Shown here: positions 6,029-32,187 of the stretch, piece by piece | How positions within the stretch are numbered: the stretch's first letter is position 1 | How the letters are laid out: each line of letters starts with the position of its first letter | NCBI GenBank assembly: GCA_021848125.1 | Contig: JAJZMY010000038.1 | Span: 1,871-34,057, forward strand | DNA length: 32,187 nucleotides | Reading direction: 5' to 3' | DNA from: Microcaldota archaeon | GTDB lineage: Archaea > Micrarchaeota > Micrarchaeia > Micrarchaeales > Micrarchaeaceae | Notes under the pieces: generated by a model | Seen by the model: the letters and a program-made list of their open reading frames with translations, nothing else | Told to the model about the DNA's origin: nothing | Database searches by the model: none | Made by a program: the position numbers and the translations under genes

Positions 6029-6140
6029 GCGAGTATAGTCTAGTCTGGTAGGACTTTGGCCTTCCATTAAAACTTCTTAAAAAGAAGTTTTATCAAGAAG
6101 AAGAAAGTCAACGACCCGGGTTCAAATCCCGGTGCTCGCA
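6029..6140 (+). tRNA. tRNA-Gly(UCC) with a 39-nt intron
   Basis: Cloverleaf: acceptor GCGAGTA / TGCTCGC (7 bp), D-stem GTCT/GGAC with loop AGTCTGGTA, anticodon stem TTGGC/GTCAA, anticodon TCC at 6063-6065, T-arm CCGGG-TTCAAAT-CCCGG, discriminator A at 6140. Exons are 6029-6066 and 6106-6140, 73 nt when joined. The intron interrupts after A37, the canonical archaeal site. A 4-bp helix CTTC (32-35) with GAAG of the intron, followed by an AAA bulge next to the 3' anticodon stem, fits a bulge-helix-bulge for the splicing endonuclease. CCA is not encoded. Confidence 0.93.
6067..6105 (+). other. Intron of tRNA-Gly(UCC), containing an 11-bp palindromic hairpin
   Basis: Bases 6068-6078 pair perfectly with 6082-6092 around an AAA loop (AAAACTTCTT / AAGAAGTTTT core), then ATCAAGAAGAAGAA follows. 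The same layout, hairpin then ATCAARAG, is found after the lonB and DUF929 stop codons. The boundaries follow from the loop geometry and the AAA bulge. Confidence 0.8.
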
Positions 6141-26126: not shown

Positions 26127-26213
26127 TGGGCCTGGAGAGATTTGAACTCTCGGCCTCCTGATTTCTATTTTTAATATCAGTCAGGCGCTCCAACCAAGCT
26201 AAGCTACAAGCCC
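26127..26213 (-). tRNA. tRNA-Ile(GAU) with a 12-nt intron
   Basis: Minus-strand cloverleaf: acceptor GGGCTTG/CAGGCCC, D-stem GCTT/GAGC with a GG-containing loop, anticodon stem CCTGA/TCAGG, T-arm GAGAG-TTCAAAT-CTCTC, discriminator A. The anticodon GAT lies at 26176-26178. The anticodon loop is 19 nt long; removing 12 nt after A37 gives a normal 7-nt loop and a 75-nt tRNA. The intron ends so that AAA precedes the 3' anticodon stem, as in the other two tRNAs here. Confidence 0.93.
26163..26174 (-). other. 12-nt intron of tRNA-Ile(GAU)
   Basis: The minus-strand intron TTAAAAATAGAA sits between positions 37 and 38. Loop bases CTG (32-34) can pair with the intron TAG, leaving the AAA bulge before the anticodon stem. 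The central helix is short and the outer helix is missing, so this is a reduced bulge-helix-bulge. Confidence 0.7.
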
Positions 26214-31885: not shown

Positions 31886-32055
31886 AGTAAAACTCGGAAT
31901 AAATCAAAAATAATAAAATTAATAAGAAAATAAACTTATTAATAAATTTATTTTAATTAATTAAAATTATTTAAATAATCTTATTAATTATAAAAATATT
32001 TAGATTTAATTTAATTAATAAAAATTAAAAATATATGCCCCAGTAGCTCAGTGAT

Positions 32056-32068
32056 TCTTTTGCACTAA
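32056..32068 (+). other. 13-nt D-loop intron of tRNA-Thr(GGU)
   Basis: The intron TCTTTTGCACTAA is defined by a bulge-helix-bulge-like fold: D-stem as outer helix, AGTG (32050-32053) with CACT (32063-32066) as the 4-bp central helix, and AAA (32067-32069) as 3' bulge cut after its second base. The restored 7-nt D-loop and the A19-U56 match support these borders. Confidence 0.7.
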
Positions 32069-32085
32069 AGAGCACTTGCTTGGTA

Positions 32086-32098
32086 TCTATGAACAAAA
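32086..32098 (+). other. 13-nt anticodon-loop intron of tRNA-Thr(GGU)
   Basis: The intron TCTATGAACAAAA lies between A37 and A38. Loop bases TTG (32-34) pair with intron CAA, leaving an AAA bulge next to the 3' anticodon stem, the same arrangement as in tRNA-Ile and tRNA-Gly. Confidence 0.75.
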
Positions 32099-32187
32099 AG
32101 CAAGGGGTCGAGGGTTTAATTCCCTTCTGGGGCTTTACTTATAAATGGTTCGTTGCCCAAAGAATAAATTATGAAAAAATAAGTAGT

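Follow-up and report, generated by a model that had tools for sequence, protein, structure and literature searches.

A tRNA-Thr(GGU) gene near one end of a 32,187-nucleotide stretch of a Microcaldota archaeon genome (the whole stretch analyzed, hereafter the window) contains a 13-nt intron in its D loop and another in its anticodon loop, and has A19 and U56 at the positions of the nearly universal G19-C56 elbow pair. A19 and U56 covary cleanly among the Thr tRNAs of this archaeal order. Its sequence and that of its relatives make it very likely that the gene is genuine, functional, and single-copy, with introns that would be spliced out by the EndA endonuclease of the same genome and an elbow that would be held by an A19-U56 pair.

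A tRNA-Thr(GGU) gene with two 13-nt introns

The Rfam RF00005 match spans exactly positions 32037 to 32134 of the forward strand with 47.3 bits (E 2.7e-7), above the curated cutoff of 29 bits and consistent with a cloverleaf with a conserved core. With the introns in brackets, the gene reads GCCCCAG TA GCTC AGTGAT[TCTTTTGCACTAA]A GAGC A CTTGC TTGGTA[TCTATGAACAAAA]A GCAAG GGGTC GAGGG TTTAATT CCCTT CTGGGGC T, and all of its stems pair. Its features are as follows.

32037..32134 (+): tRNA-Thr(GGU) gene including two introns, giving a mature tRNA of 72 nt without CCA (RF00005 match of 47.3 bits; relatives; sole GGU-anticodon tRNA among the matches of the genome)
32050..32069 (+): D loop as encoded, 20 nt, AGTGAT-TCTTTTGCACTAA-A (sequence reading)
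32054 (+): A19 replacing G19 (retained in G001, G024, and G010)
32056..32068 (+): D-loop intron, 13 nt, TCTTTTGCACTAA, between positions 20 and 21 (absent from G001 of the same genus; helix in the minimum free energy fold; nine other tRNA genes with the same site and helix)
32080..32099 (+): anticodon loop as encoded, 20 nt, with mature loop TTGGTAA and anticodon GGU at 32082-32084 (intronless relatives have ATGGTAA)
32086..32098 (+): anticodon-loop intron, 13 nt, TCTATGAACAAAA, at the canonical 37/38 site (identical in G001; relatives have other lengths in the same loop)
32115..32121 (+): T loop TTTAATT with a G-C closing pair (sequence reading; RF00005 match)
32117 (+): U56 replacing C56 (retained in G001, G024, and G010)

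The Thr isotype is supported by the GGU anticodon and by the nearest relatives, Thr-GGU genes that include those of G001 and G024. The window genome (G000; 776 kb in 41 contigs, ~95% complete) has 41 tRNA matches at E ≤1, and no second gene with a GGU anticodon was detected among them in this ~95% complete draft. ACT and ACC together make up 122 of the 346 Thr codons in 29 open reading frames of the window. ARAGORN, the standard tRNA finder that we used, called none of the three intron-bearing tRNAs of the window and thus overlooked the Thr-GGU gene in annotation.

Evidence on the D-loop insert came from G001, a separately assembled genome of the same genus, whose Thr-GGU gene (L044:1501-1585) has a 7-nt D loop, AGTGACA, that lacks exactly the 13-nt insert, which indicates that the insert is a discrete unit. 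From position 21 to ~22 nt past the gene end, the two genes are identical, anticodon intron included, and the only difference besides the insert is at position 20, which is U in the window gene and C in G001. Within the genus, the D-loop intron was present in one genome only. We did not detect a Thr-GGU gene in the congeners G002 and G003, both incomplete drafts, by a T-arm pattern, the full Rfam tRNA list, or a reading of 20 candidate loci. The two genes, one with the intron and a sister without it, form a clean natural test case for archaeal D-loop introns. Directly 3′ of the tRNA, ~22 nt (32135-32156, ttacttataaatggttcgttgc) match G001 without a difference, in contrast to the upstream flank and to sequence farther out, both of which have diverged. 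This stretch is possibly a 3′ trailer or a regulatory element.

Intron motifs and the splicing endonuclease

In the D loop, exon AGTG (32050-32053) pairs with intron CACT (32063-32066), followed by a 3′ bulge of AAA (32067-32069). In the minimum free energy fold of the precursor, this helix stacks on the D stem across the 3-nt AAA bulge and is closed by a 9-nt loop without a second (inner) helix, so that the motif as modeled is a bulge-helix-loop (BHL). The intron thus has the ~4-bp exon-intron helix and 3-nt bulge by which archaeal bulge-helix-bulge (BHB) and BHL introns are recognized, and only 0.5% of shuffled D-loop interiors formed a 4-bp AGTG/CACT helix with a 3-nt 3′ bulge.

A pattern for the BHL motif run over 164 genomes of the order matched eleven loci in ten genomes, ten of which were tRNA genes; the remaining locus, L242, is not a tRNA and was dropped. 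Besides the window gene, introns between positions 20 and 21 were found in nine tRNA genes of eight other genomes of the order, all with the same exon-intron helix: the Thr-GGU genes of G011, G076, G103, G104, G139, and G141 (two genes) and the Phe genes of G017 and G085. Nine distinct intron sequences occur at this site, of 13 (window), 15, 19, 19, 21, 21, 22, 33, and 36 nt, and every one would splice to a normal 7-nt loop, AGTGGTA, AGTGGCA, or AGTGGGA in the other genes. Position 20/21 of the D loop is therefore a recurrent intron site in this order, mostly in Thr-GGU and sometimes in Phe. The window and G011 introns have CTTTTG and CACTA in common around the place of the G011 inner hairpin, which hints at a common origin of the two through shrinkage.

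These results bear on several points of the original prediction, which had read this gene as a tRNA-Thr with two 20-nt loops that each return to 7 nt when 13 nt are removed. Both loops measured 20 nt, the Thr identity stood, and removal of the 13 nt left AGTGATA in the D loop, with borders that match the G001 gene, and TTGGTAA with anticodon GGU in the anticodon loop; comparison with relatives supports both sets of borders well. The prediction had also taken the match between positions 19 and 56 as support for the intron borders, an argument that fails, since any likely placement of the borders leaves A19 (32054) upstream of the intron; the D-loop borders are fixed instead by the sister gene and the bulge-helix-loop. 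Its view that so short a D-loop intron is unusual held for length, in that 13 nt is the shortest seen, but not for the site, given its recurrence in the Thr-GGU and sometimes Phe genes of the order.

The anticodon intron has a weaker motif than the D-loop intron, with a central helix of only 3 bp (TTG/CAA), and is absent from the genes of several relatives. As for the splicing enzyme, the window genome contains one EndA gene, encoding 390 amino acids, of which residues 6 to 390 match ARMAN-2 EndA (PDB 4fz2) with an E value of 1e-162. It is this match that places the genome near Micrarchaeota. The stretches FRIYFPG, HSKHV, and RKTF are conserved between the two proteins and presumably hold the catalytic Tyr, His, and Lys residues. 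By analogy to this full-length match, the EndA of this genome is predicted to be able to cut relaxed motifs, as ARMAN-2 EndA is of the epsilon2 type, which is reported to cleave both BHB and BHL substrates (PMC12397907; PMC4033280). The epsilon2-type EndA would most likely cleave both introns, the one in the D loop at 20/21 as a BHL (AGUGAU^U...CACUAA^A) and the one in the anticodon loop at 37/38, and ligation after both excisions would leave 7-nt loops.

One alternative is that the D-loop insert is never spliced and that this tRNA has a permanently enlarged, 20-nt D loop, as could be proposed from the natural variability of D-loop length and from the missing inner helix. We consider this very unlikely because 20 nt is far beyond the 7- to 11-nt D loops of the intronless tRNAs that we parsed, because the sister gene is shorter by exactly 13 nt, and because nine other genes, among them that of G011 with its long inner hairpin, resemble the insert in having an in-register CACT and a 3-nt bulge. 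The position of the gene in a draft genome, 53 nt from a contig end, could likewise point to a mistake in assembly or sequencing or to pseudogene decay. The original prediction had noted that a related genome with a normal G19-C56 pair and no insert would imply such an error; G001 lacks the insert but keeps both A19 and U56, which strongly disfavors a sequence error in one genome. Together with the identity of the anticodon intron in G001, the presence of A19 and U56 in two other genera, and the intact stems, this makes an error or a pseudogene extremely unlikely. Furthermore, this is the only GGU gene found, so that its loss should harm the decoding of ACU and ACC. Splicing of a genuine, functional tRNA-Thr(GGU) thus remains our preferred reading.

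Other intron-like tRNAs were seen in passing. In the window itself, these were an Ile(GAU)-like tRNA with a 13-nt insert (26127-26213, reverse strand) and a tRNA-Gly(UCC) with a 39-nt intron (6029-6140, forward strand). Apparent T-loop introns of the form GGGTTCAAAAT...AAATCCCGC, for example in Ala-GGC, occur at L033, L034, L036, L040, and L041 of the same genome and at L228 and L230-L232 of G003, and a short apparent T-loop intron occurs in the Leu tRNA L028 of the same genome. Gln, Ser, and Leu tRNAs at L035, L038, and L039 (same genome) and L222 and L227 (G003) have Rfam matches broken in the D arm, probably by D-arm introns. At L204 (G000:C2, ~455-472), the 3′ half of a Thr-UGU tRNA with an intron is fused right behind the 3′ end of an Ala-like tRNA; it may be a tRNA fragment left by recombination or one half of a split tRNA.

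A19 and U56 covary in Thr tRNAs of the order

The window tRNA does not have the G18G19/U55C56 elbow, which is near-universal but not strictly defining for tRNAs; A19 and U56 are present, and G18 and U55 are kept. In the mature tRNA, A19 and U56 would form a Watson-Crick elbow pair replacing G19-C56, with G18 and U55 unchanged. Two scans of the 164 genomes, with patterns covering Thr-like arms only, addressed each position without reference to the other. A T-arm pattern with U56, blind to position 19, matched exactly four loci, the Thr-GGU genes of G000, G001, and G024 and the Thr-CGU gene of G010, the last two genomes belonging to two genera other than that of the window. A D-arm pattern with A19, blind to position 56, matched G001, G024, and G010; the window gene was missing because its D-loop intron hides it from the pattern. 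With this intron-masked exception, neither scan found a locus with only one of the two changes. Among 50 distinct parsed tRNAs, A19 occurred only in those four loci and U56 likewise; some of the 50 were collected by similarity to the window gene, so that the pattern scans carry less bias. The matched change at 19 and 56, together with these relatives, argues that pairing is preserved.

Other tRNAs of the window genome retain G19 and C56, its own Thr-CGU and Thr-UGU included. Since the Thr-CGU of the window genome is G19/C56, at least two independent A19-U56 events have probably occurred in Thr tRNAs of one archaeal family. The covarying replacement put forward in the prediction was thus borne out by G001, G024, and G010 and by independent scans. 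Its rarity was overstated, since A19-U56 is also found in tRNAs of several groups of bacteria and in further tRNAs of DPANN archaea. A scan of ~85,000 species that demanded both letters, and so shows recurrence rather than covariation, matched at least 119 stretches, which among the matches listed were mostly Bacteroidales Gly(UCC). The matches listed also included Ala(CGC) of Alphaproteobacteria, Saccharibacteria, and Peregrinibacteria, CAU tRNAs of Omnitrophota, and Thr tRNAs of Fructobacillus, Bacilli, and Nanoarchaeota/Pacearchaeota, those of DPANN being Thr(UGU). We therefore rejected the idea that A19-U56 is unique to this lineage. Loci L073-L152 (e.g., L073, L081, and L080) hold such Bacteroidales Gly(UCC), bacterial Ala(CGC), and Omnitrophota CAU tRNAs.

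It appears highly improbable that A19 and U56 arose by drift as unrelated changes and form no pair. The double change occupies only four loci of the order, two of them in close relatives, so that independent events are few. Against drift, the two changes are never seen apart, whether in Thr-GGU (g1 and g22) or in Thr-CGU (g8); the G19/C56 Thr-CGU of the window genome points to probably at least two events; and several bacterial tRNAs show the same double change. A different explanation would be that loss of a methylase relaxed the constraint on position 56 and allowed U56. 2′-O-methylated C56 (Cm56) is a hallmark of archaeal tRNA, for which either Trm56 or a guide RNP is responsible (PMC7912444), and we found no Trm56 (PF01994) match in G024 or across the genus (four genomes). 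However, Trm56 is present in 50 of 85 family genomes and in G010, whose Thr-CGU carries the A19-U56 swap; nearly all of the 35 family genomes without a Trm56 match lack an A19-U56 locus, and other tRNAs of the window genome retain G19/C56. Trm56 loss therefore leaves the swap unexplained; G010 in particular led us to reject it as the cause of U56, and any contribution from it is unlikely. Our reading remains a preserved A19-U56 pair.

These findings document a case in nature in which covarying bases replace the tertiary pair that is most conserved in tRNA. We lean toward the broader view that the 19-56 pair of natural tRNAs switches repeatedly between G-C and A-U as a compensated unit. Within a single archaeal family, Thr tRNAs would probably have made the switch two or more times, and Bacteroidales Gly, several bacterial Ala(CGC), and other lineages would have made it separately, so that the universal G19-C56 would be a preference rather than a requirement. 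An A-U elbow raises the question of what it means for C56 methylation, RNase P, and other factors that bind the elbow.

Other departures at the elbow were observed. A tRNA-Ala(UGC) at L018:5-107 (G000:C30), identical in a second species at L218 (G003:C25), has D loop AGTAGTG and T loop TGCGATT, so that A18, G55, and G21 replace the near-universal G18, U55, and A21 with G19-C56 retained. In several tRNAs of the order, C55 (T loop TCC) stands in place of the universal U55/pseudouridine 55, at L002 (Lys-CUU), L022 (Thr-UGU), L049, L071, L206, and L238.

Comparison with known systems

Like the multi-intron tRNA genes of ARMAN-1/-2 and the Thermoproteales, which are cut by EndA, the window gene combines noncanonical and anticodon-loop introns, and as in those systems, a relaxed BHL motif occurs with an epsilon2-type EndA in the genome. 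In contrast to them, its D-loop intron is only 13 nt long, the shortest of those found in the order at this site, and its splicing is predicted. The 20/21 introns of G011, G076, G103, G104, G139, G141, G017, and G085 share the site, the AGTG/CACT helix, and the 3-nt bulge with the window intron, but the tRNAs that carry these introns retain G19, and the G011 intron can form a long inner hairpin where the window intron has merely a 9-nt loop.

With respect to the elbow, Bacteroidales Gly(UCC), alphaproteobacterial and Saccharibacteria Ala(CGC), and DPANN Thr(UGU) show the same double change at 19 and 56, although these natural tRNAs, identified by pattern, are other isoacceptors without introns. 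A literature search of limited coverage found no report naming a natural A19-U56 tRNA. The closest functional parallel is human mitochondrial tRNA-Ser(UGA), in which an engineered A19:U56 pair restores aminoacylation and thus functionally replaces G19:C56, but in a laboratory mutant rather than in a natural gene (PMC10412605).
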